A DNA stretch of 28,478 nucleotides from a virus: positions 1 through 28,478 of IMG/VR virus record IMGVR_UViG_3300005663_000170; one strand, given 5' to 3'. Of the stretch, positions 3,186-28,467 are shown piece after piece. The translations under genes were made by a program, and so were the position numbers. Numbering within the stretch: the first letter of the stretch is position 1; the number at the start of each line of letters is the position of its first letter. A model generated the notes under the pieces. That model was not told the DNA's origin and did not search any database. It saw nothing but the letters and a program-made list of their open reading frames with translations.

Positions 3186-3815
3186 ATGCCCAGACCCAAA
3201 AGGACGCCGAAGGACAAAGACGCAGCCTCGGAGGCTCTACTGGACAACCTCACGAAAAAGGGTCAGGTCAAGGAAGAGCGTGACGAAGCTAACGATGACC
3301 CGTTTCTAGACCAAGACGGTGACATGCGTGTAGTCCCAACAAATGCGGATCTGTCGGGTCTGGTTTCGGACGAAGCCTCTATTAACTCTCTCCCGTTCAA
3401 AGAAATTCTCCGAAGAAATCTACAGGTTACACTGCGCGCCACCGAAATGGCCGAACTTGCTTACCACGCCAATCCTCGGCAGGGTACTGCTACAGCCCTA
3501 ACCTCGATGCAGAATTTGGCAACGGATCTCATCAAGGCCATCGAGGAGCGTCAAGATCCTATGGACTTGGCTTCTGAGGTTGAGGAAGCTGTTATCCAGC
3601 CCATGATTGCAGAGTTCATCAAGATTCTAACGTCCGAGGCTGAGCGCAAGCGTTCCGCTTTGATGGCTATTACACCCGCCGAGAATGCTGGTGTCGTTTC
3701 ACACGAGATGCGGGATCTTCTGGCAGGCATCAGAGGTGGTATGGACGAAGCATACGATGATGGTCGCCGAAAGCTAGAAGACCTCCTGTGCTCCAAGATC
3801 AAGAAGACTAAGTAA
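3186..3815 (+). CDS. unknown helical protein directly before the large terminase
   Basis: The 209-residue protein begins immediately after the preceding stop codon and ends in TAATG, sharing one base with the large terminase start. Residues 1-55 are charged and probably disordered. Residues 70-205 are nearly all helical (for example LPFKEILRRNLQVTLRATEM). Helical proteins in this position are often the small terminase subunit, which recognises phage DNA, but no helix-turn-helix is clear, so this is only a positional guess. The C-terminus is very basic (KIKKTK). Confidence 0.6.
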   Translation: MPRPKRTPKDKDAASEALLDNLTKKGQVKEERDEANDDPFLDQDGDMRVVPTNADLSGLVSDEASINSLPFKEILRRNLQVTLRATEMAELAYHANPRQGTATALTSMQNLATDLIKAIEERQDPMDLASEVEEAVIQPMIAEFIKILTSEAERKRSALMAITPAENAGVVSHEMRDLLAGIRGGMDEAYDDGRRKLEDLLCSKIKKTK

Positions 3816-5809
3816 TGGCGAAGGCTGCGGCAGAACAATGGTCACCGTCAAGTATGGTGGATGCGGCCCTGGCTTCTGACCTTGACCCTGGAATTTTCTC
3901 TACCATTGATGAGGGAGATGTACCCAAGTCTGGGAACTTTCTTGACTTCTGCATTAACAAGAAGTTCCTTAACGTACTGCCCTACCCCAGACAGGTCGAA
4001 GTGGGACTAATGTTCTTCGAGGAATATTGTCCCGACTGCTCGAACCCTGCTTGGCTTTTTGGTGACGAACGGGATCTAGATCTGTTCGACCAACCAATGG
4101 GAGAGATCCTAGAAAACATCAAATTGCTTGAGTTTGGCGTGTGCCCTAAATGCGGGCAGAATCGTAATGACTTCGTAAAGAAGGGATACTTCCATAACCC
4201 ATACGAACTGGCTGGATGCGCTGGACAGCGTTCCGGCAAGTCCGCAGTTATCGCCATGATTGCTGCCTATGTCCTTCATAGGTATTTGTGCATTCCTGAT
4301 CCTATTCGCACCTTAGGTCTGCTGTCGTCCTCTCAGCTATACATGAGTATGACCGCCATTTCCGCCGGTCAGGCCGAAGCGTCCTTGTGGACTCCCTTCA
4401 AGGAATACGTCGATCAGGCTCCTTGGTTTGTGGAGTACCACAAGCTTCTAGCTGATACAGGAGAGCGTCTAGGGACGGAACTACTACATCGACCTAGAAC
4501 ATTCCTCGTGTACCAACACAAGCGCATCGCTTGTATGTACGAAGCACCTAATAAGCGTCGTCTTCGTGGTAAGACTCGTTTCTTCACTGCAATTGATGAG
4601 ATCGGATGGATGGAGGCGGATGCCGCCAAGCAGTCTGTAACTATGTCTGCTGACGAAATTTCCGCTTCTCTAGACAACTCTTTGCGAACCGTCCGATCTA
4701 TGGTCGAGACCCTGCGCGAAAAGCGTAATCTCTTCAACCTACCAGACGGCTACGCCTGCAACATCTCCAGCCCCTCCGACAAGAACGACCGTATCATGCG
4801 GTCTGTGCGTTCCGCTCGCACCAATCGGAAGATCTACGCTTACCATTACCCGACCTGGGAAGCAAACCCATTCATTTCCCGTGCCAGCCTACAGCCCGAG
4901 TACGACAAGAGCAAGATGGTGGCCGAACGAGATTTCGGTGCCGTACCCCCGTTGGCAAATGATCCGTTCATTGACAACCCGAATTGCGTCGATCTTATGA
5001 TCGTGCCGGATCACAAGCACAATCTGATTCAAGTCAAGATGGCATATAACACGGACGACTTTGGCAACAAGACGAAGTACGCCTCCGTGAAGGTCCCACA
5101 CATCGACAAGCGAAAGCCTAGAATGCTTCTCGTGGATGCTGGAGAGAAGCGTAATCACTTTGCCGTTATGCTTATGACCTGGGACACGAAGATGAACCGT
5201 GCCCGAGTCGATTACGTTTTCGATGTTCCGCCGGAGGAGGGTATTCCGATCAATTTCGCTTTGATGTGGGAGCACTGCTTCCTACCGCTGGTACAGGGCT
5301 TGCTCATCAAGCACATGTTCTCGGATACATGGAACAGCACGGACTTGGTACAGAAGCTCCGACAGCACAAGGTAATGTCAGAGCAATACACTTTGAAATT
5401 CATGGACTTAATAGAGATAGCTGCACGTCTAAGCTCCGGCGAGCTGATGCTACCGAAGCCCGAGCTTCCCGTAGAGGATCTGAGGCTGACCTACGAGAAT
5501 CCGACCGAGTTCGTAGACGGGAAGCCCATTCTTGGTCTGATTTTACAGATGTTGACGGTTAGGCAGGTAGGACGACGGGTCGTAAAGCCAGTAAATGGCG
5601 AAGATGATATGTTCCGAGCCTTGGCTTTGGGCATGTATCACATCATCCGACCGGAGATCAAGAGGATCTACGCTGTGGATGCCGCAGGCGGGGCTGGCGG
5701 CAATCTGGGGGTTATCTCTAGTAGGAGTGCGGGGTCTGCCGGAATTGACCCAAGAAAACGCACATCAGGCGCTATTTTAGCGACAAAGCGCGGTTATCGC
5801 AACCGATAG
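3815..5809 (+). CDS. terL: terminase large subunit with zinc-binding insertion
   Basis: This 664-residue protein is the DNA-packaging motor and headful nuclease. The ATPase half has a Walker A motif GQRSGKS (137-143) and a Walker B motif FFTAIDE (256-262), with the catalytic Glu262. The nuclease half has the RNase H-like acidic residues Asp441 (MLLVDAGEKRNHFAVM) and Asp504 (HMFSDTWNS). Two CxxC pairs, Cys72/Cys75 and Cys110/Cys113, flank about 35 residues ahead of the Walker A and look like a zinc ribbon inserted in the N-terminal part. The gene starts in TAATG overlap with the upstream gene. It is slightly longer than typical TerL proteins because of the N-terminal region. Identification is strong; the zinc role is inferred. 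Confidence 0.92.
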   Translation: MAKAAAEQWSPSSMVDAALASDLDPGIFSTIDEGDVPKSGNFLDFCINKKFLNVLPYPRQVEVGLMFFEEYCPDCSNPAWLFGDERDLDLFDQPMGEILENIKLLEFGVCPKCGQNRNDFVKKGYFHNPYELAGCAGQRSGKSAVIAMIAAYVLHRYLCIPDPIRTLGLLSSSQLYMSMTAISAGQAEASLWTPFKEYVDQAPWFVEYHKLLADTGERLGTELLHRPRTFLVYQHKRIACMYEAPNKRRLRGKTRFFTAIDEIGWMEADAAKQSVTMSADEISASLDNSLRTVRSMVETLREKRNLFNLPDGYACNISSPSDKNDRIMRSVRSARTNRKIYAYHYPTWEANPFISRASLQPEYDKSKMVAERDFGAVPPLANDPFIDNPNCVDLMIVPDHKHNLIQVKMAYNTDDFGNKTKYASVKVPHIDKRKPRMLLVDAGEKRNHFAVMLMTWDTKMNRARVDYVFDVPPEEGIPINFALMWEHCFLPLVQGLLIKHMFSDTWNSTDLVQKLRQHKVMSEQYTLKFMDLIEIAARLSSGELMLPKPELPVEDLRLTYENPTEFVDGKPILGLILQMLTVRQVGRRVVKPVNGEDDMFRALALGMYHIIRPEIKRIYAVDAAGGAGGNLGVISSRSAGSAGIDPRKRTSGAILATKRGYRNR

Positions 5810-6134: not shown

Positions 6135-8159
6135 ATGAAGTTTCATTTTGGACAAGGACGCGCCCGGACACCCCACGGAAGCCCCGGGGGGCGTATTGGC
6201 AAGACCAGGACTGCAACTGCTGGTGTTAGTAGTGGTAGTGGCATTGGTCCCGGCAGCGGTGGTGGTGGCGGAGGTTCAGGCTTCGGCGGAGGCGGAAACT
6301 ATGATGTTTCTCGCTTCAATCCTGTCCACGACAATCTAGAAATTGGATCGGTAATTGAAGATTGGATGCCCCGAGACCAAACTGGTCTCAACCAGATGTG
6401 GCGTCTGATTTATTTGCGCGACGCAATTGTTGGTCCGGCAGTCGATCTCTACTCCAACCTGCCGTACTCTGAGTGCAGGTTGACGGGTATTGACGATCCG
6501 GCTATCATGCGCGTCTATCAGGATACCATGGAGCGCCTGGACATCGTAACGATGATGCCAGAGCTGGTCCGTGAATTCCTCATGATTGGGCGATTCTGCT
6601 CATCCCTCATCTTCGACCGGCGTCAGGGCGTGTTCACGGACTGGACCACCCACGACCCGGACTTCCTGCGCATCGAGCCCATCCCTGTTCGTGGCTTCGA
6701 CCCCAAGATTGACCTTGTAGCGTCTCCGGCGCTAAAGAACTTTCTCCATTCTATGGACCCACGGGACATGGCGGTAAGAGACAACCTCCCGCTTGAGTTC
6801 TTCGATGAGTTCGAGAAGACGGGGACCTACAAGCTGAATCCTCTGAACACCTTGTTTGTGCCACGGCGCGCGAACCCCTACGATTACGTCGGTACGTCGT
6901 TCTTGACCCGTATCGTTAGTTTTTGGGCATTGGAGAAGTCTCTCATCGAGAGCACAGTAACCAATGCCCGACGCCGCACACGTTCTATCCTTCACGTCAC
7001 AGCGGGCCTTGACAACATGTGGGAGCCCACAGAAGACGAGTTGGAGGCTATATCCGGTCTATTTATCCAGGCTGACGAGGACCCGGTAGGCGCTGTTGTA
7101 ACCACCCGCACAGGTGTCGAGACTAACGAGGTCAAGGCGGGTATGGACTTCTGGAAACTCTCCGATGAGTGGGCCTTTCTTACAGAGGGCAAGATGCGCG
7201 CCCTCGGTATCTCGGACGCCTTTCTTAGTGGTGACGCGACCTACAATAACATGGAGACCGCCCTGTCGGTGTTTATGGAGTCTCTACGGACCCTGCGAGC
7301 CTACATGGACCGTCGCGTCTTCTACGAGAAGGTCTTTGCCACTATCGCCCGTGTTCACGGATTCATCAAGCCCGATGCCAGAAGTCGCCATCTCCGAGGC
7401 CCACGTATTGGTCAGACGCTAGAGTACAAGAACGCTATCAAGATCCCCCGCGAAGACCTTCTCATGCCAAAGATCGTCTGGGACAAGAAGCTCCAGCCCG
7501 AAGGCGATATGAACTTCCTTGAGATGCTTCAGTCAGCCGATGACGCTGGCGTTCCGGTCACGTTGAAGCAGTGGGCCTCTGGTGCCGGTCTCAACCTAGA
7601 AGAGATGATGGAAGAGTTGGAAGAGGACTCTCGCTACCGCAAGATGACAGCGGAGTGGCGCAAGCAGTTCACGGGAGACCAAGCCCTAGAGCAGGAAGTG
7701 ATGTCCAGCCTTGGACTCCGCTCGATCCCTGTGTGGGACGATCAGCACAACTTTCTGATATTGTCCTCTGACGAGGCCCTAGACGTTATTGAGCACTTCA
7801 CAAAGAGCCGACGTAATCTAGCCAAGCTCCGCAGTCCCGACGAAACCATGCGCACAATTAGTAGCCTGTTGGACGGAAATTCTATGAAGACTGAGCTTAT
7901 GGGTTATCTTCTAAGGCGGCTAGGAATCGGTAAAGCCCTCCCTATGGAGGACAATACCTACGAGGCTATTTCCGAGCACCTGTTCAAGATTGGTACACAA
8001 ACGGAGAGCGGCAAAAAGAAGAAGGCGGTACACGCTGAGTTCGAGACATTGGCGAAGATGATGACACCTCAGTTTTCCGACGGAGAGAAGAGCAAGCTTC
8101 TCGCCACGGCGACTAGGGATGTCTCACCGTTCTCTGCAAGTTCCGTGACGGGGAGTTAA
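6135..8159 (+). CDS. portal protein
   Basis: The 674-residue protein directly after the terminase genes has the features of a portal, the dodecameric ring through which DNA enters and leaves the head. The core starts near residue 75 with NQMWRLIYLRDAIVGPAVDL followed by a Tyr/Ser-rich strand, a pattern typical of portal clip and wing domains, and a long helical region lies in the second half. Residues 32-54 are an extreme Gly/Ser linker that separates a short basic N-terminus (residues 1-30) from the core. The C-terminal 80 residues are charged and helical. No strong ribosome site precedes the ATG, so translation may be coupled to the upstream stop three bases away. Identification rests on position, length and the N-terminal core pattern. 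Confidence 0.8.
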   Translation: MKFHFGQGRARTPHGSPGGRIGKTRTATAGVSSGSGIGPGSGGGGGGSGFGGGGNYDVSRFNPVHDNLEIGSVIEDWMPRDQTGLNQMWRLIYLRDAIVGPAVDLYSNLPYSECRLTGIDDPAIMRVYQDTMERLDIVTMMPELVREFLMIGRFCSSLIFDRRQGVFTDWTTHDPDFLRIEPIPVRGFDPKIDLVASPALKNFLHSMDPRDMAVRDNLPLEFFDEFEKTGTYKLNPLNTLFVPRRANPYDYVGTSFLTRIVSFWALEKSLIESTVTNARRRTRSILHVTAGLDNMWEPTEDELEAISGLFIQADEDPVGAVVTTRTGVETNEVKAGMDFWKLSDEWAFLTEGKMRALGISDAFLSGDATYNNMETALSVFMESLRTLRAYMDRRVFYEKVFATIARVHGFIKPDARSRHLRGPRIGQTLEYKNAIKIPREDLLMPKIVWDKKLQPEGDMNFLEMLQSADDAGVPVTLKQWASGAGLNLEEMMEELEEDSRYRKMTAEWRKQFTGDQALEQEVMSSLGLRSIPVWDDQHNFLILSSDEALDVIEHFTKSRRNLAKLRSPDETMRTISSLLDGNSMKTELMGYLLRRLGIGKALPMEDNTYEAISEHLFKIGTQTESGKKKKAVHAEFETLAKMMTPQFSDGEKSKLLATATRDVSPFSASSVTGS

Positions 8160-8160
8160 C

Positions 8161-8299
8161 ATGCGAATTTGTAGTATAGACGGATGTGAGCGCAAGCATT
8201 ATTTACAAAGAATTGAAGAGGTGCGAAATGGTATGTTCTAACTGCCATCGAATGAGAACGTATTCTAGATATGAGCAGCTTGAGCTTGGGGGGCTCTAA
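8161..8299 (+). pseudogene. remnant of a zinc-type HNH endonuclease, frameshifted and internally deleted
   Basis: Two short frames together read as the two ends of a small HNH endonuclease. Frame one, from ATG 8161, gives MRICSIDGCERKHY and then LQRIEEVRNGM before a stop at 8239-8241. The overlapping second frame, from 8228, gives MVCSNCHRMRTYSRYEQLEL and ends in TAATG at the next gene start. The CxxxxGC start and the xxEExxxxxxVCSNCHRxRTY end are typical of phage zinc-HNH proteins. The central His/Asp catalytic block is missing, and a one-base frame change separates the halves. Two independent tiny genes are possible but less likely. Confidence 0.5.
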
Positions 8300-9279
8300 T
8301 GCAACCGAAACACTACAAATTTGAAAATTTGGAATCTTCCCTCAGCACCAAGATGTTCGAGGATCACTGGAAGCTCTATGAGCGAGCAGTGGAGAGCCTG
8401 AATGAGACCATGACAAAGCTATCCAACCCGTATGACCCGGAGCGCCTCCGCTCTGCCTCTACGGCTTCTGGTGAATGGCGCGACATCGAGAACGACAAGA
8501 CAAGCCTGTCGAACTCTGCAATGCTTCACGAGCTATTCTTCGAGAACGTACTCATGCCCCCGCAGAGCGCCCCGATGCCTGCCGGACCTATGTTCACCTC
8601 GTTGGTACAGTCTGAGTTCCCTCACGTCAAGGCTACTGATTTCTGGTCGCATGTCATCAAGCCCACAGCTAAGGCTGCTCGCGGCTGGTGCATTGTTGGC
8701 TGGGATACGGTGAACTCCAAGATGGACGTTACCATGATGGACGGGGACTTCGGTCCGTGTCTCGTGGGCCTGTACCCCATTTTGGTGATAGACACCTCCG
8801 AGCACGCTTATGCACCGCAGTATGGCATTGACAAGGGCACGTACCTTGAGCATATCGCCAAAAGCATCAACTGGAGCATCATTGAGCACCGTGTCGGTGT
8901 CATCCACAGCGCCTCTGAGCTGATGCGAACAGCTATCCCCGAGCAGGCCGAAGACTACGTTCGAGACATGCTGGAAGAGCAGAAGGACGATTTCGGGTTC
9001 CCGGACAAAGAGTCCTACAACGAACAGGGCCTACCGCCCGCAGTCGGGCTGGATTCGCGAAACGAGAAGTCTATTTCACCCAATCCCCGAGTTCAGAGTT
9101 CTGTAGCAGACGGCCAGGGTGGCGTAACGTTGGCTGACCTAGAAGCAGCTAGGGACAGGATTAAGGCACTTGCCAAAGTAACCTTCAGATCCGAAGACTC
9201 CATGTATGACGAGGAAGTACGCGGGAAAAGCGCGGACTTTCGGGAGGCTCTATGGGACAGGCTTCGAGAGGAAGAGTAA
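8299..9279 (+). CDS. protein with Fe/Mn superoxide dismutase-like domain
   Basis: The first 200 of 326 residues match the Fe/Mn superoxide dismutase fold. The N-terminal hairpin contains His23 (MFEDHWKLYERAV), the second helix His77 (MLHELFFENVL), and the C-terminal domain runs from ARGWCIVGW to VIDTSEHAY, with Asp165 and His169, then YLEH and INW. These four are the expected metal ligands. Glu168, which bridges the dimer in known enzymes, is also kept. The Trp of the usual DxWEH motif is Ser167, the second Tyr after EHAY is Ala, and the outer-sphere Gln/Asn region reads MMDGD, so classic activity is uncertain. Residues 200-326 are a charged helical extension absent from normal SODs. It lies between portal and protease, starts in TAATG overlap, and may be a virion protein. 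Confidence 0.75.
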   Translation: MQPKHYKFENLESSLSTKMFEDHWKLYERAVESLNETMTKLSNPYDPERLRSASTASGEWRDIENDKTSLSNSAMLHELFFENVLMPPQSAPMPAGPMFTSLVQSEFPHVKATDFWSHVIKPTAKAARGWCIVGWDTVNSKMDVTMMDGDFGPCLVGLYPILVIDTSEHAYAPQYGIDKGTYLEHIAKSINWSIIEHRVGVIHSASELMRTAIPEQAEDYVRDMLEEQKDDFGFPDKESYNEQGLPPAVGLDSRNEKSISPNPRVQSSVADGQGGVTLADLEAARDRIKALAKVTFRSEDSMYDEEVRGKSADFREALWDRLREEE

Positions 9280-10262: not shown

Positions 10263-11003
10263 ATGGCAGATAACGAGCCCACTATCGTACACGGTTCGGT
10301 CGTTACGGCCGAATCTAGTATCGAAGCCCACAAGAAGTCATACCAGTATGACAAGGGACGTGGCGTTACGGCTAGTGTTCTTCAAGGTAAGGAAATCTCC
10401 AGTAACTTCAAGCGAGACATTGACGTGTCTTGGCTTCAGGCTGCGGCGGACACCTACCGGATCAGTGGTGACATCAATGATTACGTCATTGTAGACATTC
10501 CGTCGGTAACGATTGACATCCCGAATCGAAATCTCCAGGCGTTCCCATACGAAGAGGTTTCATTTTTCGACAACATGCAGGGTTCGCTAGTGTATCAGAC
10601 GTTCACTGGACGCCCGACGCACGTTGACCATCAGAATTCTGACCCCCTTGAGGCTAAGGGCGTCCATTTTGACTCTACCCTCCAGTTCGTTCCTGCATAC
10701 AACGTATGGAAGATTAGGACTCTTGCTGGTTTCGACCGCACAAAGGACCAGAAGCTTGTATCCGACATCTTGACTGGTCGCCGAAATGGCTACTCGATGG
10801 GTGCGCTGGTACAGAACTTCGTGTGCTCCAACTGTGGCGAGGTCGAGGTCATCAAGAAGCCTTGCCGGTGCATGGCTATGGGCAAAGGCTCTATCGTGGA
10901 TGGTCGCCTTGTATATCAGCTTTGCGCCGGAGTACAGTTCTTTGAGCAGTCCTCAGTAGAGGACCCGGCAGACCCTACGGCCGTGACAGACTCGGTTAGG
11001 TAA
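10263..11003 (+). CDS. capsid (prohead) maturation protease, T4 gp21-like
   Basis: This 246-residue serine protease would cleave scaffold and capsid N-termini during head maturation. It shows the family pattern in order: a strand with NRNLQAFPYEEV (89-99), FTGRPTHVDHQNSDP with the catalytic His (120 or 123), a core of strands, then GRRNGYSMGALVQNF with the catalytic Ser178, and a C-terminal GVQFFEQSSVEDPADPTA. A CxxC...CRC cluster (Cys188, 191, 201, 203) after the serine is a zinc-knuckle seen in T4-like phage relatives. The start has a strong ribosome site (AGGGGGG). Position upstream of scaffold and capsid genes agrees. Identification is strong. Confidence 0.88.
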   Translation: MADNEPTIVHGSVVTAESSIEAHKKSYQYDKGRGVTASVLQGKEISSNFKRDIDVSWLQAAADTYRISGDINDYVIVDIPSVTIDIPNRNLQAFPYEEVSFFDNMQGSLVYQTFTGRPTHVDHQNSDPLEAKGVHFDSTLQFVPAYNVWKIRTLAGFDRTKDQKLVSDILTGRRNGYSMGALVQNFVCSNCGEVEVIKKPCRCMAMGKGSIVDGRLVYQLCAGVQFFEQSSVEDPADPTAVTDSVR

Positions 11004-11007
11004 CGAT

Positions 11008-11775
11008 ATGCCGTGGCAAAGTAAAAAGCAGCAGCGGTGGGGACATAGCCCCGCAGGCAAGAAAGAACTGTCCAAGAAGGAAATCAAGGAATTTGATGAC
11101 GCTACGGATTTCGATTCCCTGAAGGATGAGGCTACTGGGGGTAAGGGACCTACACGACGACAAGGAAGCGGACAGAAGACGCCGGAGTCTGTAAAGAATC
11201 TGCGGCGATCTAGTCGCGAGATCCACAAGGACGTAAACCAGAACAGTGCTGGCCCCCAGACCTCCAAGAAGGGCGACAGGGGTTATAACCGCAAGCAGAA
11301 GCACAAGAATAGTGACGACGAGACGATTAGCGAGGAGCTTACAATGGTGGATGAGACATATCGTGGCGTAGGTTTCCCGATGGCTGAGACACTGAGCTGG
11401 AAGACCTCTGCGCGCAGGGGCAGCGGAACTTCTTCGGCTGGCGACGACGACGAAACCCCGGTAGTTGACACACCCGGTTTCCCGCCTACCAAGGAAGGTG
11501 GCGGCGATGTTCCCGACGATGGGGCGGCGTGGGGCTCTTCAATAGCAGCAGACCTTACATGGTCCACACACAAGTCTGAGACATTCAACGACGACGGTGA
11601 AAAGGGCGGTGTGTCATCCTGGGGCCTGAAATCCATTATCGACCGTGGCGTCAAGACCCACGAGAAGCCCTCTGGGGCAAAGCGTATTGAAGACGCCGAG
11701 AACCAGACTACGAAGCGCGAAATTCCGGGAAAGCAGTTCAAGTCCTACTCGATGGTTGGAGCGTTTTACTGGTAA
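11008..11775 (+). CDS. highly charged, probably disordered scaffold-like protein
   Basis: The 255-residue product begins MPWQSKKQQRWGHSPAGKKE, a start seen in small head-region proteins of many phages. It then consists mostly of Lys, Glu, Asp, Ser and Gly with few hydrophobic residues, so most of it is probably disordered. Short aromatic blocks near residues 120-135 and at the end (YSMVGAFYW) may be binding motifs. It lies between the protease and the intein-bearing gene, where scaffold or internal core proteins are usual. The stop codon shares one base with the GIY-YIG start. Function is inferred from place and composition only. Confidence 0.6.
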   Translation: MPWQSKKQQRWGHSPAGKKELSKKEIKEFDDATDFDSLKDEATGGKGPTRRQGSGQKTPESVKNLRRSSREIHKDVNQNSAGPQTSKKGDRGYNRKQKHKNSDDETISEELTMVDETYRGVGFPMAETLSWKTSARRGSGTSSAGDDDETPVVDTPGFPPTKEGGGDVPDDGAAWGSSIAADLTWSTHKSETFNDDGEKGGVSSWGLKSIIDRGVKTHEKPSGAKRIEDAENQTTKREIPGKQFKSYSMVGAFYW

Positions 11776-12485
11776 TGAGTGAAGAGAAGCCTTACGGGAT
11801 TGTTTACGTGCTGACTTCGCCTAGCGGGAAGCAGTACGTGGGCCAGACAGTCAAAACTTTGAAGCACCGTCTCCGAAAACATAGATCCCTAGCAGAAGGT
11901 AGGTTTCAAAATTCAGCTATTGCTGGGGCTGTTAGGAAGTACGGTATAGACGCTTTTGAAAGTTGTGTAATAGCAATAGCATCTTCGCAAAGGGAGTTAG
12001 ACGCTCTAGAGATTCGCCATATTGCAGAACAGGGTACTATTGCTCCCAATGGTTATAATCTTCTCGCTGGCGGCTCTGGTGGTCGTGTGCATCATAAAGA
12101 CACGAGAGAAAAGCTTAGAAAGGCTGCCACAGGTAGAAAGGCTTCTGACGAAACTAGACGTAAAATGTCTGAGTCCAACAAGGGCGATAAGAACGGGTTT
12201 TACGGAAGGAAACATTCCGAAGAAACAAAATTGAAGATGCGCGTCCACAAAAGAACACCAGAGCACGCAGCTAAACTGGGTTCCGCCAAAGCAGGTACAG
12301 TTCTAACACAGGAACATAAAACCAAAATAGGTGAAGGAATTAGGAAATTTTGGGACGAGAAAGGTAGAAGCCCCCTAAATCACAGCACATACGCAGGGTA
12401 CCGAAAGGGCTGCAAATGCCGTCCCTGCCTAGACGCTAATTCTTCTTACCACAAAGCACGGAGAGAGCGAAAGCTCGCTGAGTAA
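11775..12485 (+). CDS. free-standing GIY-YIG homing endonuclease with NUMOD3 repeats
   Basis: The 236-residue protein has the GIY-YIG nuclease domain at residues 7-100: GIVYVLTSPSGKQYVGQT, the conserved Arg in LKHRLRKHR, the metal-binding Glu in ALEIRHIAE, and GYNLLAGG. Residues of about 105-195 hold NUMOD3-type repeats (ASDETRRKMSES, HSEETKLKM), which bind DNA. The last 40 residues have GYRKGCKCRPC, a Cys-rich motif resembling one common in actinobacterial phage proteins. Its A-rich codons (AGA, AAA) differ from its neighbours. It starts in TAATG overlap and ends one base before the intein-bearing gene, as expected of a mobile gene inserted between two late genes. Confidence 0.85.
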   Translation: MSEEKPYGIVYVLTSPSGKQYVGQTVKTLKHRLRKHRSLAEGRFQNSAIAGAVRKYGIDAFESCVIAIASSQRELDALEIRHIAEQGTIAPNGYNLLAGGSGGRVHHKDTREKLRKAATGRKASDETRRKMSESNKGDKNGFYGRKHSEETKLKMRVHKRTPEHAAKLGSAKAGTVLTQEHKTKIGEGIRKFWDEKGRSPLNHSTYAGYRKGCKCRPCLDANSSYHKARRERKLAE

Positions 12486-12486
12486 T

Positions 12487-13377
12487 ATGGACAACAAAAC
12501 GCTAGCACACAGATTGAACTGGAAGGTTCTTGGTTACGGACATGGCGGGTATCATTATAACCCACATGTGTGTATAGCACAAGGGTCTTTAGTGTACACA
12601 CCAGAAGGAACAATTTCTATCGAAGAATGCGTTCCCGGAATGCTTGTTTTTCAGTGTGATGAAGAGCGAATGTGTCTCAGCACCACGACAGTTAGAACAG
12701 TGTACAGTCACGGCATTCAGTCAGTATTTCGTGTCATTTCTGAGACGGGAGACGAGATTACAGCTACAGTAGACCACAAGTTTTTGTTTGAAAATGGCTG
12801 GTTGTCCTTGAAAGAAGCCGTGGGCCTAACGGACGATGAGTTTCCTCACGCCACTAAATACCCGAAATTCCAGATGTTGTCGGCGAGGGGGGACATTGTT
12901 GTCACGAAGATGATTAGCGTGGAATTTGTAGGAAACGTCCCTGTTTATGATATTGAGGTGGAGTCAGAGTACCATAATTTCATCTGTGAAGGTTATGTGA
13001 CTCACAATTCAAAGCCCGTAGCCCTCGAACCCATTGGTGAGGAAGGCGGATATTCATATTTCGGTCCGCCCCCAGATGGCGGCTTCAGTTACGGATTATT
13101 TTCCGACGGCGAAAACACCATAGCTTCACAGATGGCCCTAGAGGTATTCAGCCCTCATAATGGGAAGCTCATGAAGTACCGGGGACCCGTCCCTTTTGAG
13201 GAAGTGCAGAAGGCAATGAGCGGCTCTAAGTTCGCGAATTTGCTGCATTCTTGCGGAACCTGCTCATCCTCCTACGTAACATCTTCCGATCACGCCCAGA
13301 ACTGCCACTGCCCATCCTGCGGGACATTGAGTGACTATGGCAGTGCCTTGATGCGCGGTCGTAAAAACAGACGATAA
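12487..13377 (+). CDS. small zinc-ribbon head-region protein interrupted by an intein
   Basis: The 296-residue precursor has a 28-residue N-extein, an intein of 146 residues (29-174) and a C-extein of 122 residues. Spliced, the product would be about 150 residues. The C-extein has a Gly/Phe-rich part (SYFGPPPDGGFSYGLF) and near its end CGTCSSSYVTSSDHAQNCHC followed by PSC, a likely zinc ribbon, then a basic tail. No enzyme motif is present in the exteins. The gene sits between the GIY-YIG endonuclease and the large scaffold-like gene; no clear ribosome site precedes its ATG, so coupling with the upstream gene is possible. The extein function is unknown. Confidence 0.75.
   Translation: MDNKTLAHRLNWKVLGYGHGGYHYNPHVCIAQGSLVYTPEGTISIEECVPGMLVFQCDEERMCLSTTTVRTVYSHGIQSVFRVISETGDEITATVDHKFLFENGWLSLKEAVGLTDDEFPHATKYPKFQMLSARGDIVVTKMISVEFVGNVPVYDIEVESEYHNFICEGYVTHNSKPVALEPIGEEGGYSYFGPPPDGGFSYGLFSDGENTIASQMALEVFSPHNGKLMKYRGPVPFEEVQKAMSGSKFANLLHSCGTCSSSYVTSSDHAQNCHCPSCGTLSDYGSALMRGRKNRR
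12571..13008 (+). mobile_element. mini-intein without endonuclease domain
   Basis: The encoded segment starts with Cys29 (CIAQGSLVYTPEGTISIEEC) and ends in VTHN followed by Ser175, the expected N-terminal Cys, C-terminal His-Asn and +1 Ser of an intein. The block B motif is TVDH (94-97), and block F is VPVYDIEVESEYHNFICEGY. At 146 residues it is only the Hint splicing domain, with no LAGLIDADG or HNH insert. The DNA is more A+T-rich than the flanking extein code. All splicing residues look intact, so protein splicing is likely. Confidence 0.88.
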
Positions 13378-16923: not shown

Positions 16924-18057
16924 ATGTCTAAGAACCCCTATCTAGCTCGCCCGGCATACGTCGGACGCAACGGGGATGCGCTCGTAGATGGTGGCCATAA
17001 AGCTGGCCGCGTTTCGCGAGCAGGCACCGTGATTCAGTCAAATACTGAGTCTGCTGTTGCAGGTAATGGCGAGATCAACGCAGGAAGCAAGCGTGAGCTG
17101 ATGCAGGCCATCAGTTCGCTACAGCGCGCGGTGTCAGTCGGTGAAGTCCGACAGGCTTCGCAGCAAGAGCAGTACGGCGATGTCGTACAGGCTCGACGTG
17201 AGCTGGTCGAGGCTGCCTACGCCGACAAGAACGGTGAAGGTTGGCAGGTACTCGGCGAGGTAATCGGTGAAGAGATCTGGGAGACCCTAGGTCGTGAAGG
17301 CTTCGCCCGCAAGACTCTTCTCATCAAGCCCCTGGGCAAGGGTGAGACTGGTCGATTGCGCGTCCGCCGCAAGGATGTGATTTCGTTCTTCGCCACAAGC
17401 GATCCGAACGTCATTGCTTCCAGCGTCCGACAGTTCTACATCTACCCGCCCGAGTTCTACTTGATCGCGCACATTACGATCGAGGACAAGGAGATTGAGC
17501 AAGCTTCTGGCGATCTTCTGGACGACAAGTACCAAGACGGTCTTGAGCAGATCATGGTCAACGAGGATAACGTTTGGCGTAACCTCATCAATGCTGCCGC
17601 TGGCGCATCGAATGACCTGTTCCTGTTCAACACCTTCACGCCCACGGTATTCTCCACCATGCGTACACAGATTGCGCGTTGGGGTATCCCGGTAACTGGT
17701 GCGGTCATCGCCTTCGACCTCTGGGACGACATCATTGCTGACACTGAGTTCAGCACTTGGTTCGACCCGGTATCGAAGCACGAGATCGTTCTTGAAGGTT
17801 CCCTCGGCAGCATCCTTGGTGTTAATCTCATCACGGACGCCTTCCGCCACGATACCTTGCAGGTGTTGCAGCCCGGTGAAGTTTACTTCGTCGGTGCCCC
17901 GCAGACCCTCGGTGGTATTACGCAGCGTAAGGAACTCGCCACTGAGAGCATCAACAAGTACAACCAGGGCAAGCCGGAGCGCGGCTGGTTCATGGAGACC
18001 ATAGAGGGAATGTCAATTGTGAATTCCCGAGCAGTTACACGCGGTAACCGCGTATAG
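16924..18057 (+). CDS. major capsid protein, HK97 fold
   Basis: The ATG at 16924 follows a strong AGGAG at 16912-16916; the frame extended to 16900 would contain that site. The 377-residue protein has a helical, charged N-terminal region (about residues 45-95, KRELMQAISSLQRAVSVGEV) like the delta domain that the maturation protease removes. It then shows HK97-like elements: a long spine helix (about 190-225), strands around the A-domain, and a C-terminal part ending GWFMETIEGMSIVNSRAVTR, typical of T4-like and jumbo-phage capsid proteins. It is followed by a strong terminator and preceded by a two-hairpin leader, fitting a heavily expressed gene. Identification rests on place, length and C-terminal pattern. 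Confidence 0.85.
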   Translation: MSKNPYLARPAYVGRNGDALVDGGHKAGRVSRAGTVIQSNTESAVAGNGEINAGSKRELMQAISSLQRAVSVGEVRQASQQEQYGDVVQARRELVEAAYADKNGEGWQVLGEVIGEEIWETLGREGFARKTLLIKPLGKGETGRLRVRRKDVISFFATSDPNVIASSVRQFYIYPPEFYLIAHITIEDKEIEQASGDLLDDKYQDGLEQIMVNEDNVWRNLINAAAGASNDLFLFNTFTPTVFSTMRTQIARWGIPVTGAVIAFDLWDDIIADTEFSTWFDPVSKHEIVLEGSLGSILGVNLITDAFRHDTLQVLQPGEVYFVGAPQTLGGITQRKELATESINKYNQGKPERGWFMETIEGMSIVNSRAVTRGNRV

Positions 18058-18175: not shown

Positions 18176-18868
18176 ATGGATGAATTGAAGTTTTGTAGAG
18201 GTTGCTCCCAAGATTTACCAAAGGCCGAGTTTGCCAAGCGTGCAGATCGACCACTAGGTACGTCGAGCCGATGCAAGAAATGTCTCAGTGCGGACCTCAG
18301 GAAGAAGTACCAAGACCCCGAATTCGCAGAGAAGGACATAGCAAGAGCTTCCAAGTGGGCTAAGGACAACCCAGAGAAGCATGTAGCCAGAACTACAAAC
18401 TGGAAGAAACAGAACCCGGAAAAAGTGTCCAAGCAGCAAAAGCGCTGGTACGACGACAACAAAGAAAGAGTCAGAGACAACCAGAGAACCTACGAGAAAG
18501 AGAGATACAACACAGACCCGAACTACATGCTCCGAAAGCGTCTCAGAAGCCGAATGTACGACATTTTCAGGTCTGAGACAAGGAACGGAAAGAAAGCAGG
18601 ATCGCACGTAAGAGACCTAGGGTGTTCTATAACACAGCTTATCTCTTACATGGAGGACAAGTTTACACCAGAAATGACCTGGGACAACCACGGAGCACTC
18701 TGGGAGATAGACCACGTTGTACCGCTGGCCAATTTTGACTTGACGGACAGGAACCAGTTTCTAGAGGCGTGCCACTTTACCAATTTACAACCCTTAGGAA
18801 TTGATGAACACTTGGAAAAGACCACAAGAGAATTGGCGGACACATGCAACCTTTCAACTGGTCAATAA
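18176..18868 (+). CDS. free-standing HNH homing endonuclease
   Basis: The 230-residue protein has two N-terminal CxxC pairs (CRGC and CKKC), a long basic linker with repeated W(K/A)K..NPEK units (about 60-115) that probably lies in the DNA groove, and a C-terminal HNH core: WEIDHVVPLANFDL, then FLEACHFTNLQPL. These match phage HNH homing nucleases. The Asp-His and the Asn of the metal-finger are present, so it may be active. It lies just behind the capsid terminator with no good ribosome site and A-rich codons (AGA, AAG) unlike its neighbours, as expected of an inserted mobile gene. Its end overlaps the next gene by 25 bases. Confidence 0.87.
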   Translation: MDELKFCRGCSQDLPKAEFAKRADRPLGTSSRCKKCLSADLRKKYQDPEFAEKDIARASKWAKDNPEKHVARTTNWKKQNPEKVSKQQKRWYDDNKERVRDNQRTYEKERYNTDPNYMLRKRLRSRMYDIFRSETRNGKKAGSHVRDLGCSITQLISYMEDKFTPEMTWDNHGALWEIDHVVPLANFDLTDRNQFLEACHFTNLQPLGIDEHLEKTTRELADTCNLSTGQ

Positions 18869-19432: not shown

Positions 19433-20509
<1,077 letters not shown>

Positions 20510-20524
20510 AGAACTGGAGACTGA

Positions 20525-26993
<6,469 letters not shown>

Positions 26994-26994
26994 G

Positions 26995-28467
26995 ATGGCT
27001 CATCGTCACCAAATCATCATCATACCCAATGTAATAGACATGAAGGCCCTGGACTTTGATGGAACTGAACAGTTGCTTAACTCCTCAGACAACCCACTTG
27101 GTATCGCTAATGAGTGGAGCATTCAGATAAACGCCAATCCCGGTAGCGATTCTAACGATATTTACTTGTTGCGTATTCAACCGATTACCGGGTTTGGTAA
27201 TCAAATAGCTATTCATTTAAGAGGAGATCAAGCTAACGACCCGATTAGCGTACGGATTTTGCGTGCTAATGGAAATTCCCTGAAAGATTATGAATGGGAC
27301 AGCACCTACACCGTAGGGACAAAGGTTTCCTATATTGTCACCTGGGACGGCACGGATTTGCTGCTCTACATAGACGGAGTGCTAACTGCGGCTGATACTT
27401 TGATCTCCGATTTCTCCTCAGCAATGACCGCAACAGACAGAAGAGTTTCTGTGGGGTCAGCGCTGGGTGGTGTGCCCTGGGTAGGTTTGATTCATTCAAC
27501 TTCTGTGTGGAATGTGGTGCTTACCCAAGCAGAGATTACTACTCTTCAGAACAGCGATTCCCCGGAAAATATAGACAACAGATTCAACTCCGGTGACTAC
27601 TTTAGTTCGGCGAACCTTCAGCATTACTGGCGTCATGGGTTGGATGCAGCAGATATAGGCAAGGATTCAGGAAAAGCATCAACGCTCATCGACATCGGTG
27701 ACAACGCCACGGGCATCACAGCAGATGATATCGTGGAATACACCTCGGGAGTTGAAGATACGAAGGCCCTGGATTTCACTACAGGTGAACATCTTAGAAA
27801 CACCACAGAGCAAGCAATAGGTATAGCTAATACTTGGTCTATTCAAGCAAACTATGAGCCTTCAAATGTTGCATTTGAGTTCTCGGTGATGGGAATCGGA
27901 ACCAACAACACTAACAAAGATATGATTCGATTTGATCTTATAGGGAATGTAGCAAATGATCCTTTGCGCATAATTCTAACCGAGAATGACACCACAGTAA
28001 TCAAGCAGTATGATTGGGAGAGTGTTCATACCCTCGGTGTCAAAATAAGTGTGATCGCGACATGGGATGGCACCAATCTTGTCGTGTATATAGATGGGGT
28101 AGAAACCGCTGCTACCACCAAGACTACAGACAATGCAGGGTCTCAATTAGCCACTGTACGGTCAGTAGCAGTAGGCGGTAGAACTGTCGGCTCATTTTCC
28201 TTCTCTGGGGATATTCATTCGGTTTCTGTGTGGGATTCAGTCCTCACTCAAGCAGAGGTGACTTCCCTTCAGAATTCAAGCTCACCGCAGAGCATCGACA
28301 ATCGCTTTGACTTTGGCAGCTATGCAAGCTCATCCAACCTTCAGCACTACTGGCGCTGCGGGTTCGATGCCACAGATATTGGCAGGGATTACGGCAACGC
28401 TTCCACGCTCATCGACATCGGTGACAACGCCGAGAACATCACAGCAGATGATATTGTGACCTACTGA
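26995..28467 (+). CDS. tandem double LamG-domain protein, likely fibre tip or adhesin
   Basis: The 490-residue protein is an internal duplication of about 241 residues. Both halves begin KALDF, continue with IANxWSIQ, a VTWDGT or ATWDGT strand with LxxYIDG, and SVWxxVLTQAEITTLQNS, and end with SSxNLQHYWRxG and TLIDIGDNA...ITADDIV. These are LamG/concanavalin A-like (Laminin_G_3 type) jelly rolls, a fold used for glycan or protein binding. The same module with its SSANL tail is present once in the preceding gene. It has no collagen repeat and no signal peptide. The ATG follows two bases after the upstream stop. It probably acts as a separate binding subunit of the fibre array. Confidence 0.8.
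   Translation: MAHRHQIIIIPNVIDMKALDFDGTEQLLNSSDNPLGIANEWSIQINANPGSDSNDIYLLRIQPITGFGNQIAIHLRGDQANDPISVRILRANGNSLKDYEWDSTYTVGTKVSYIVTWDGTDLLLYIDGVLTAADTLISDFSSAMTATDRRVSVGSALGGVPWVGLIHSTSVWNVVLTQAEITTLQNSDSPENIDNRFNSGDYFSSANLQHYWRHGLDAADIGKDSGKASTLIDIGDNATGITADDIVEYTSGVEDTKALDFTTGEHLRNTTEQAIGIANTWSIQANYEPSNVAFEFSVMGIGTNNTNKDMIRFDLIGNVANDPLRIILTENDTTVIKQYDWESVHTLGVKISVIATWDGTNLVVYIDGVETAATTKTTDNAGSQLATVRSVAVGGRTVGSFSFSGDIHSVSVWDSVLTQAEVTSLQNSSSPQSIDNRFDFGSYASSSNLQHYWRCGFDATDIGRDYGNASTLIDIGDNAENITADDIVTY
27682..28431 (+). repeat. long coding tandem duplication with 27-bp identical block
   Basis: ACGCTCATCGACATCGGTGA and the next seven bases (27682-27708) recur exactly at 28405-28431. The offset of 723 bases (241 codons) equals the LamG repeat length. 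Most of the rest of the two copies has diverged, so this block may have been kept by selection or recent gene conversion. Confidence 0.85.

Follow-up and report, generated by a model that had tools for sequence, protein, structure and literature searches.

A superoxide dismutase-fold protein with a conserved metal site, encoded among the head genes of a jumbo-phage clade

Results

Location of the gene in a phage head module

The DNA analyzed here, referred to throughout as the window, is the whole stretch of 28,478 nucleotides that makes up positions 1 to 28,478 of IMG/VR record IMGVR_UViG_3300005663_000170. In it, the terminase gene is followed in order by a small zinc-ribbon-like ORF, the portal gene, the relic of an HNH endonuclease, a gene for a superoxide dismutase (SOD)-like protein, a gene designated g315, the protease gene, more ORFs, and a head protein gene. 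The landmarks are as follows.

3815-5809, + strand: terminase large subunit (phrog_17415, E 1.4e-145)
6135-8159, + strand: portal protein (phrog_16240, E 1.2e-123)
8161-8299, + strand: HNH-type homing endonuclease relic in the portal-SOD gap; frameshifted, 46 codons, identified by motif recognition only
8299-9279, + strand: SOD-fold head-module protein; intact ORF with ATG start, 326 amino acids
9280-10227, + strand: g315, partner gene adjoining the SOD gene
10263-11003, + strand: head maturation (prohead) protease (phrog_18299, E 7.8e-56)
16924-18057, + strand: major head protein (phrog_2522, E 2.9e-65)

The portal belongs to the PaBG/BcepSauron/Vibrio GR7B type (32-38% identical), and 139 nt separate its end from the first base of the SOD gene. 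The gap is occupied by the HNH relic, which translates as MRICSIDGCERKHY... and ...MVCSNCHRMRTYSRYEQLELGGL, and which was found by comparison of the junctions to be missing from the relatives. A preliminary description of this DNA had placed the SOD gene in a head module, and this location is upheld by the PHROG assignments of the portal and the protease, as well as by the same gene order in five contigs. The gene does lie between portal and maturation protease as described, but g315 also lies between it and the protease; likewise, the reported one-base overlap is real (TAATG), but its partner is the HNH relic and not the portal. In the window, the SOD gene and g315 abut (TAA followed directly by ATG), while in three relatives (L003, L010, L020) the two overlap by one base. 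The g315 product, 315 amino acids long, has a conserved CRKC motif and belongs to no recognized family; the gene was encountered only where the SOD gene also occurs, in exactly the five contigs of the SOD clade described below, and no homolog was found in 50,697 public phage records.

Several mobile and repetitive elements were also seen in the window. An intein is located at 12487-13377 (Pfam Intein_splicing, E 4.8e-11), and the homologous ORF of L003 (13462-13914) is free of it; GIY-YIG-like and HNH-like homing endonuclease ORFs are located in the head region at 11775-12485 and 18176-18868. The region 19445-28467 encodes a series of collagen-like proteins (Gly-X-Y, GETGATG), some with extra domains, which are likely fibers.

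Relatives of the gene

Only 2 differences from the window were counted over 20,978 compared bases of the contig IMGVR_UViG_3300005253_001115 (266,640 bp), which was therefore regarded as effectively the same virus. Four further distinct contigs carry the gene, with protein identities to the window of 81% over the full length (L003), 59% (L019), 57% (L020) and 56% (L010). The slot, comprising portal, SOD, g315 and protease, is identical in all five members of this clade, which are uncultured phage contigs, and Pfam search revealed one SOD in each, bearing in mind that the contigs may be incomplete. The five-member SOD clade is monophyletic (UFBoot 100), and within it the window and L003 form a clade of their own (UFBoot 100). 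For this pair dN/dS was about 0.05 and dS was nearly saturated; the low ratio indicates that the SOD gene of the window is under purifying selection and not decaying.

In the PaBG-type phages examined and in L013, no SOD-like gene was annotated or seen between portal and protease, and Pfam search found no SOD anywhere in the L013 (portal 44% identical) and L026 contigs. Similarly, the protein that follows the portal in Phage NCTB (P0001) and Vibrio GR7B (P0002) contained no SOD motif. Since phages with related portals (L013, PaBG, GR7B, JA11, PhiXhv-16, and others) build heads without an SOD gene, the protein is not a universal head part. No member of the SOD clade was found on a search of bacterial genomes. 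As a separate observation, the portal genes of the clade differ in intein-like insertions, of which there is none in the window, apparently one in L003 (6625-9999), and apparently two each in L019 (1219-5997) and L020 (1257-6011).

The SOD domain and its C-terminal extension

The protein is divided into the following parts.

8299-8898, + strand: Fe/Mn-SOD domain, residues 1-200 (AF2 and Foldseek)
8899-9276, + strand: C-terminal extension, residues 201-326, conserved in the clade alignment
9049-9105, + strand: motif LDSRNEKSISPNPRVQSSV in the disordered linker of the extension, partly conserved across the clade (alignment, AF2)

The proposal that the N-terminal 200 residues adopt an SOD fold was confirmed by profile search, sequence search and structure prediction. 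Sod_Fe_C (PF02777) matched residues 124-198 of the window protein with an E-value of 4.3e-12 and 46.4 bits, above the curated cut-off of 20.9, and matched all five clade members. The best solved relative in phmmer was 1coj, the Aquifex SOD (E 1.2e-20, residues 2-209). The N-terminal α-hairpin family PF00081 had no match in the window at E<=1 and weak matches in three of the five clade members (best 0.011); the AF2 model contains a helical hairpin (helices 17-41 and 59-84). No PHROG match was obtained for the ORF. When AF2 was supplied with an alignment of 65 sequences, consisting of the window and proteins of the fetched loci, the pLDDT was about 95 over residues 1-200 (per block) and 84.9 overall, whereas a three-sequence alignment gave only 36. 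With this model as query, Foldseek again placed 1coj at the top (TM 0.86, target-normalized; rmsd 2.6), and all 50 PDB matches that it listed were Fe/Mn SODs. By virtue of the pLDDT and the matches to solved SODs, the Fe/Mn-SOD domain of residues 1-200, with its two-domain fold, can be considered established by prediction.

The C-terminal extension had no convincing Pfam match. In the AF2 model it consists of helices, a disordered linker and further helices, the helices being predicted at residues 192-212, 215-229, 278-295, 299-307 and 312-324, and the low pLDDT at 244-273.

Conservation of the metal site

The window sequence was aligned with 80 cellular SODs and with the clade, and the residues of the metal site were located as follows.

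8365-8367, + strand: His23, metal ligand 1
8527-8529, + strand: His77, metal ligand 2
8791-8793, + strand: Asp165, metal ligand 3
8800-8805, + strand: Glu168 (dimer bridge) and His169 (metal ligand 4)

Each of these columns is invariant in 80 of 80 cellular SODs and in 5 of 5 clade members, such that the four ligands and the dimer-bridging Glu, all named in the preliminary description, are indeed intact. The close match of the model to solved SODs suggests that the four ligands converge on one site, and it is reasonable to assume that the window protein binds a metal and that it may dimerize.

Departures in the outer sphere

The cellular set was fetched by two alternative patterns, one covering the LHEL(Y/F)F region and the other the D-x-(Y/W)-(E/K)-H region. 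In this set of 80, 23 columns were conserved in at least 95% of the sequences, although at the pattern columns, including 167, this conservation is partly built in because the patterns chose the set, and the window departs at five of them (29, 30, 73, 150, 167). The positions of Tyr34 and Gln/His, as well as position 73, fall outside both patterns. All five departures are at or beside active-site outer-sphere positions, while the ligands, Glu168, Trp130 and Trp192 are kept among the conserved columns. The departures are listed below.

8383-8388, + strand: Arg29-Ala30, replacing Gly-Tyr34 of the substrate gateway (cellular: Gly 77/80, Tyr 79/80)
8515-8517, + strand: Ser73, where Gly or Ala is conserved, four residues ahead of ligand 2 (cellular: Gly/Ala in 78/80)
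8746-8748, + strand: Asp150, replacing the water-coordinating His/Gln (cellular: His 66 and Gln 14 of 80)
8797-8799, + strand: Ser167, replacing the Trp/Tyr cage residue (cellular: Tyr 63 and Trp 17 of 80)

Position 73 is the site of the N-terminal active-site Gln in some Fe-SODs. Two of the substitutions had been recognized earlier, namely Ser167 at the usual Trp (Trp/Tyr) position, and the MMDGD sequence of the Gln/Asn region, in which Asp150 sits at the Gln/His position; the changes of Tyr34 to Ala30, Gly to Arg29 and Gly/Ala to Ser73 had been missed. Ala172, which had been listed as a replacement of the usual Tyr, is not diagnostic, as any of F, Y, M, L, V or A can occupy this position in cellular SODs. 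The position of His30 also carries no weight, because most cellular relatives in the set already have Leu or Tyr at this site.

The sister sequence, L003, has M, S, S, D and H at columns 29, 30, 73, 150 and 167. The window and L003 therefore lack all three of Tyr34, Gln/His and Trp/Tyr, having A and S, respectively, at position 30, D in both at position 150, and S and H at position 167; no such triple loss occurs among the 80 sampled cellular SODs. The other three clade members (L010, L019, L020) retain Tyr30 (the Tyr34 equivalent), His150 and Tyr/Trp167. Since the window and L003 form a clade, the triple loss maps to one branch, and this is the only branch on which a loss can be placed, because the placement of L010 among the clade members is ambiguous.

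In MnSOD, His30, Tyr34 and Gln143 constitute a proton relay (PMC5836015), and the same review states that SOD activity is abolished by mutations at either Gln143 or Tyr34. In natural Fe/Mn SODs (SodFMs), second-shell changes are known to shift the metal preference (PMC10172142); that survey covers changes at Gln/His and at XD-2, but not Asp together with loss of Tyr34.

SOD genes in other phage lineages

A scan with cellular and clade SODs retrieved 49 viral contigs. About half of them belong to a separate phage group with a mostly canonical SOD near thymidine kinase, dCMP deaminase or DnaE. Other, distinct lineages have the gene in their head modules: in L132 the SOD comes after a phrog_2522 head protein (E 2.8e-53) with one long ORF between, in L159 it is followed by a small ORF and then by a phrog_2522 head protein (E 3.8e-71), and in L151 it is flanked by an SPP1-type portal and a MuF-like protein, both of which are weak matches. 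The same SOD as in L151 is carried by L152, whose sister, L155, has an SOD (1303-2058) beside a head-morphogenesis gene; its ligands are kept, but the residues at the Tyr34, Gln/His and Trp/Tyr positions are now H, G and H. A single phage clade of all head-module SODs was considered and set aside due to weak support (UFBoot 58-65, FastTree 0.78).

The scan also turned up unusual architectures. A Peptidase_Mx zincin interrupts the SOD domain in L144 (4071-7019), L157 (3837-5510) and L147, and the L144 protein additionally has a DRAT-like ADP-ribosyltransferase domain. In the phage group of L115 and L117-L143, the SODs have N-terminal extensions and a recurring leader-like motif (e.g., KKVIRDTLG, KLIRESL), which is common to neighboring ORFs and might be a packaging signal. 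Lastly, SOD-like matches in public Enterococcus, Listeria and Staphylococcus ‘phage’ records, unannotated and mostly short, were set aside as likely host sequence; the public records OR846594.1, OR846937.1 and OR850395.1, unannotated and mostly short, have bacterial-looking SODs and are probably host DNA.

Discussion

A probable captured enzyme in a head module

We lean toward the view that a captured SOD was fixed as a head-module protein in this clade and that, in the subclade of the window, it retains the metal site but probably has little or no dismutase activity. An ancestor of these jumbo phages would have captured a cellular Fe/Mn SOD, which gained a new C-terminal extension and became established, together with its partner g315, between the portal and prohead protease genes. 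The product would most likely act in or on the head, as a prohead component, a portal-vertex protein, or a packaged protein; it is the gene order that suggests its presence in the particle. In the window subclade, the metal site and the dimer Glu are retained and the substrate-gating, water-orienting and cavity-lining residues are absent; because of this combination, the metal is probably still bound, but a poor or inactive dismutase is to be expected, in which the metal may be structural or serve another reaction. A structural or assembly role with a kept metal site fits the conserved slot, the extension, the partner gene, the sequence constraint, and the loss of the relay. The SOD genes in head modules of other lineages (L132, L159, L151) also speak for it.

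Several facts argue against this reading. Gene order is no proof of a structural role, and auxiliary genes can sit in late operons. A working enzyme would agree with the finding that all of the catalytic residues checked are present in three of the five clade members, and Asp150 might still orient the water. Moreover, most viral SODs elsewhere adjoin nucleotide-metabolism genes and not head genes.

The main alternative, to which we accord a distinctly smaller but real chance, is a working SOD, i.e., an antioxidant made by the phage or carried in its particle that protects the DNA, the virion or the host against superoxide, with the second-shell changes altering only metal preference or rate, as they do for preference in natural SodFMs (PMC10172142). 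It draws on the intact ligands of the window, on the complete Tyr34, His and Trp/Tyr set in L010, L019 and L020, and on the canonical SODs of other jumbo phages beside thymidine kinase, dCMP deaminase or DnaE. For the window itself, this is opposed by the joint loss of three residues in a combination absent from the 80 cellular SODs, by the abolished activity of the Gln143 and Tyr34 mutants of MnSOD (PMC5836015), and by the scope of the SodFM survey, which concerns Gln/His and XD-2 and not Asp plus Tyr34 loss. The preliminary description had left two possibilities, a real antioxidant or a reused, metal-bound protein. The latter is favored for the window because Tyr34, Gln/His and Trp/Tyr are gone in both it and its sister, while the former may still apply to L010, L019 and L020, in which these residues are kept; L019 and L020 likely encode an active enzyme.

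It is improbable, but worth stating, that the metal center was repurposed for another reaction, such as that of a hydrolase or another oxidoreductase during assembly or entry, in which Asp150 would be a newly acquired active-site residue. A change of this kind would be expected to leave the metal site in place within a modified pocket, Asp150 is common to the window and L003 under strong constraint, and L155, also beside a head-morphogenesis gene, lost the same residues in its own way. However, residues 30 (A/S) and 167 (S/H) differ between the window and L003, and there is thus no new conserved catalytic set beyond Asp150. A cargo (moron) gene that came to lie in the late operon by accident and has no part in the head or its assembly is very improbable. 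In its favor, phages with related portals lack the SOD, and phages are known to carry SOD genes as cargo, such as sodC and sodA on Salmonella prophages (PMC11332146). Against it, all five clade members have the gene in the same slot even at 56% identity, no other group has the conserved extension and the partner gene, and translation looks tightly coupled.

Overall, with the metal-binding residues kept, the residues needed by the enzyme lost, and the gene located among head genes, the results suggest the capture of an antioxidant enzyme that is now changing into a metal-holding protein of the particle or of its assembly. We propose more tentatively that the Fe/Mn-SOD fold was recruited into phage head modules more than once and has become a non-dismutase head metalloprotein in the window subclade; if true, the steps from enzyme to structural part could be read across living relatives. 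Homologs with and without an intact catalytic shell occur side by side in one gene slot of this clade, and therefore the question of how an enzyme becomes a structural part, for which a direct approach is usually difficult, is testable with five natural sequences. It also raises the question of what need a phage head would have for a redox-metal protein.

Comparison with known systems

No Fe/Mn SOD was found in a head module in 50,697 public phage records, no precedent was found in an isolated phage, and no report of one was found in the literature, which was searched mostly outside subscription journals and preprints. Fe/Mn SOD is among the viral auxiliary genes given in one metagenome paper (PMC12542629). 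Viruses are not mentioned in the large SodFM survey (PMC10172142). Structure comparison retrieved two ‘superoxide dismutase’ entries of uncultured Caudovirales, A0A6J5L953 and A0A6J5L7W0, as phage proteins of SOD fold, with TM-scores to the window model below those of solved SODs.

Viral SOD homologs are also known in the poxviruses, in which vaccinia A45R is a virion component and the leporipoxvirus homologs are described as catalytically inert decoys (PMC9282662, PMC4379559). Unlike the window protein, for which the model predicts an Fe/Mn-SOD fold, these are Cu/Zn SODs of unrelated fold in animal viruses. The Cu,Zn-SOD of Megavirus chilensis and SOD in giant-virus particles are cited in PMC9405923; they resemble our reading in linking a viral SOD to particles, but differ in being typical enzymes of the Cu/Zn fold. 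The prophage sodC and sodA genes (PMC11332146) are phage-borne as well, but are cargo that serves the lysogen.

The SodFMs, such as 1coj (the Fe-SOD of Aquifex pyrophilus), share with the window protein the fold, the four ligands, the bridging Glu, and the structural Trp and Gly residues; the window protein is unlike them in its lack of Tyr34, Gln/His and the Trp/Tyr cage, its 126-residue extension, and its place among phage head genes. PAP4/FSD3, subunits of the plastid RNA polymerase complex, offer a parallel as Fe-SOD-fold subunits of a large assembly, but are organelle proteins of an unrelated machine; PAP4/FSD3 chains are named in PDB entries 8qma, 8r5o and 9epc among the relatives of the window SOD.
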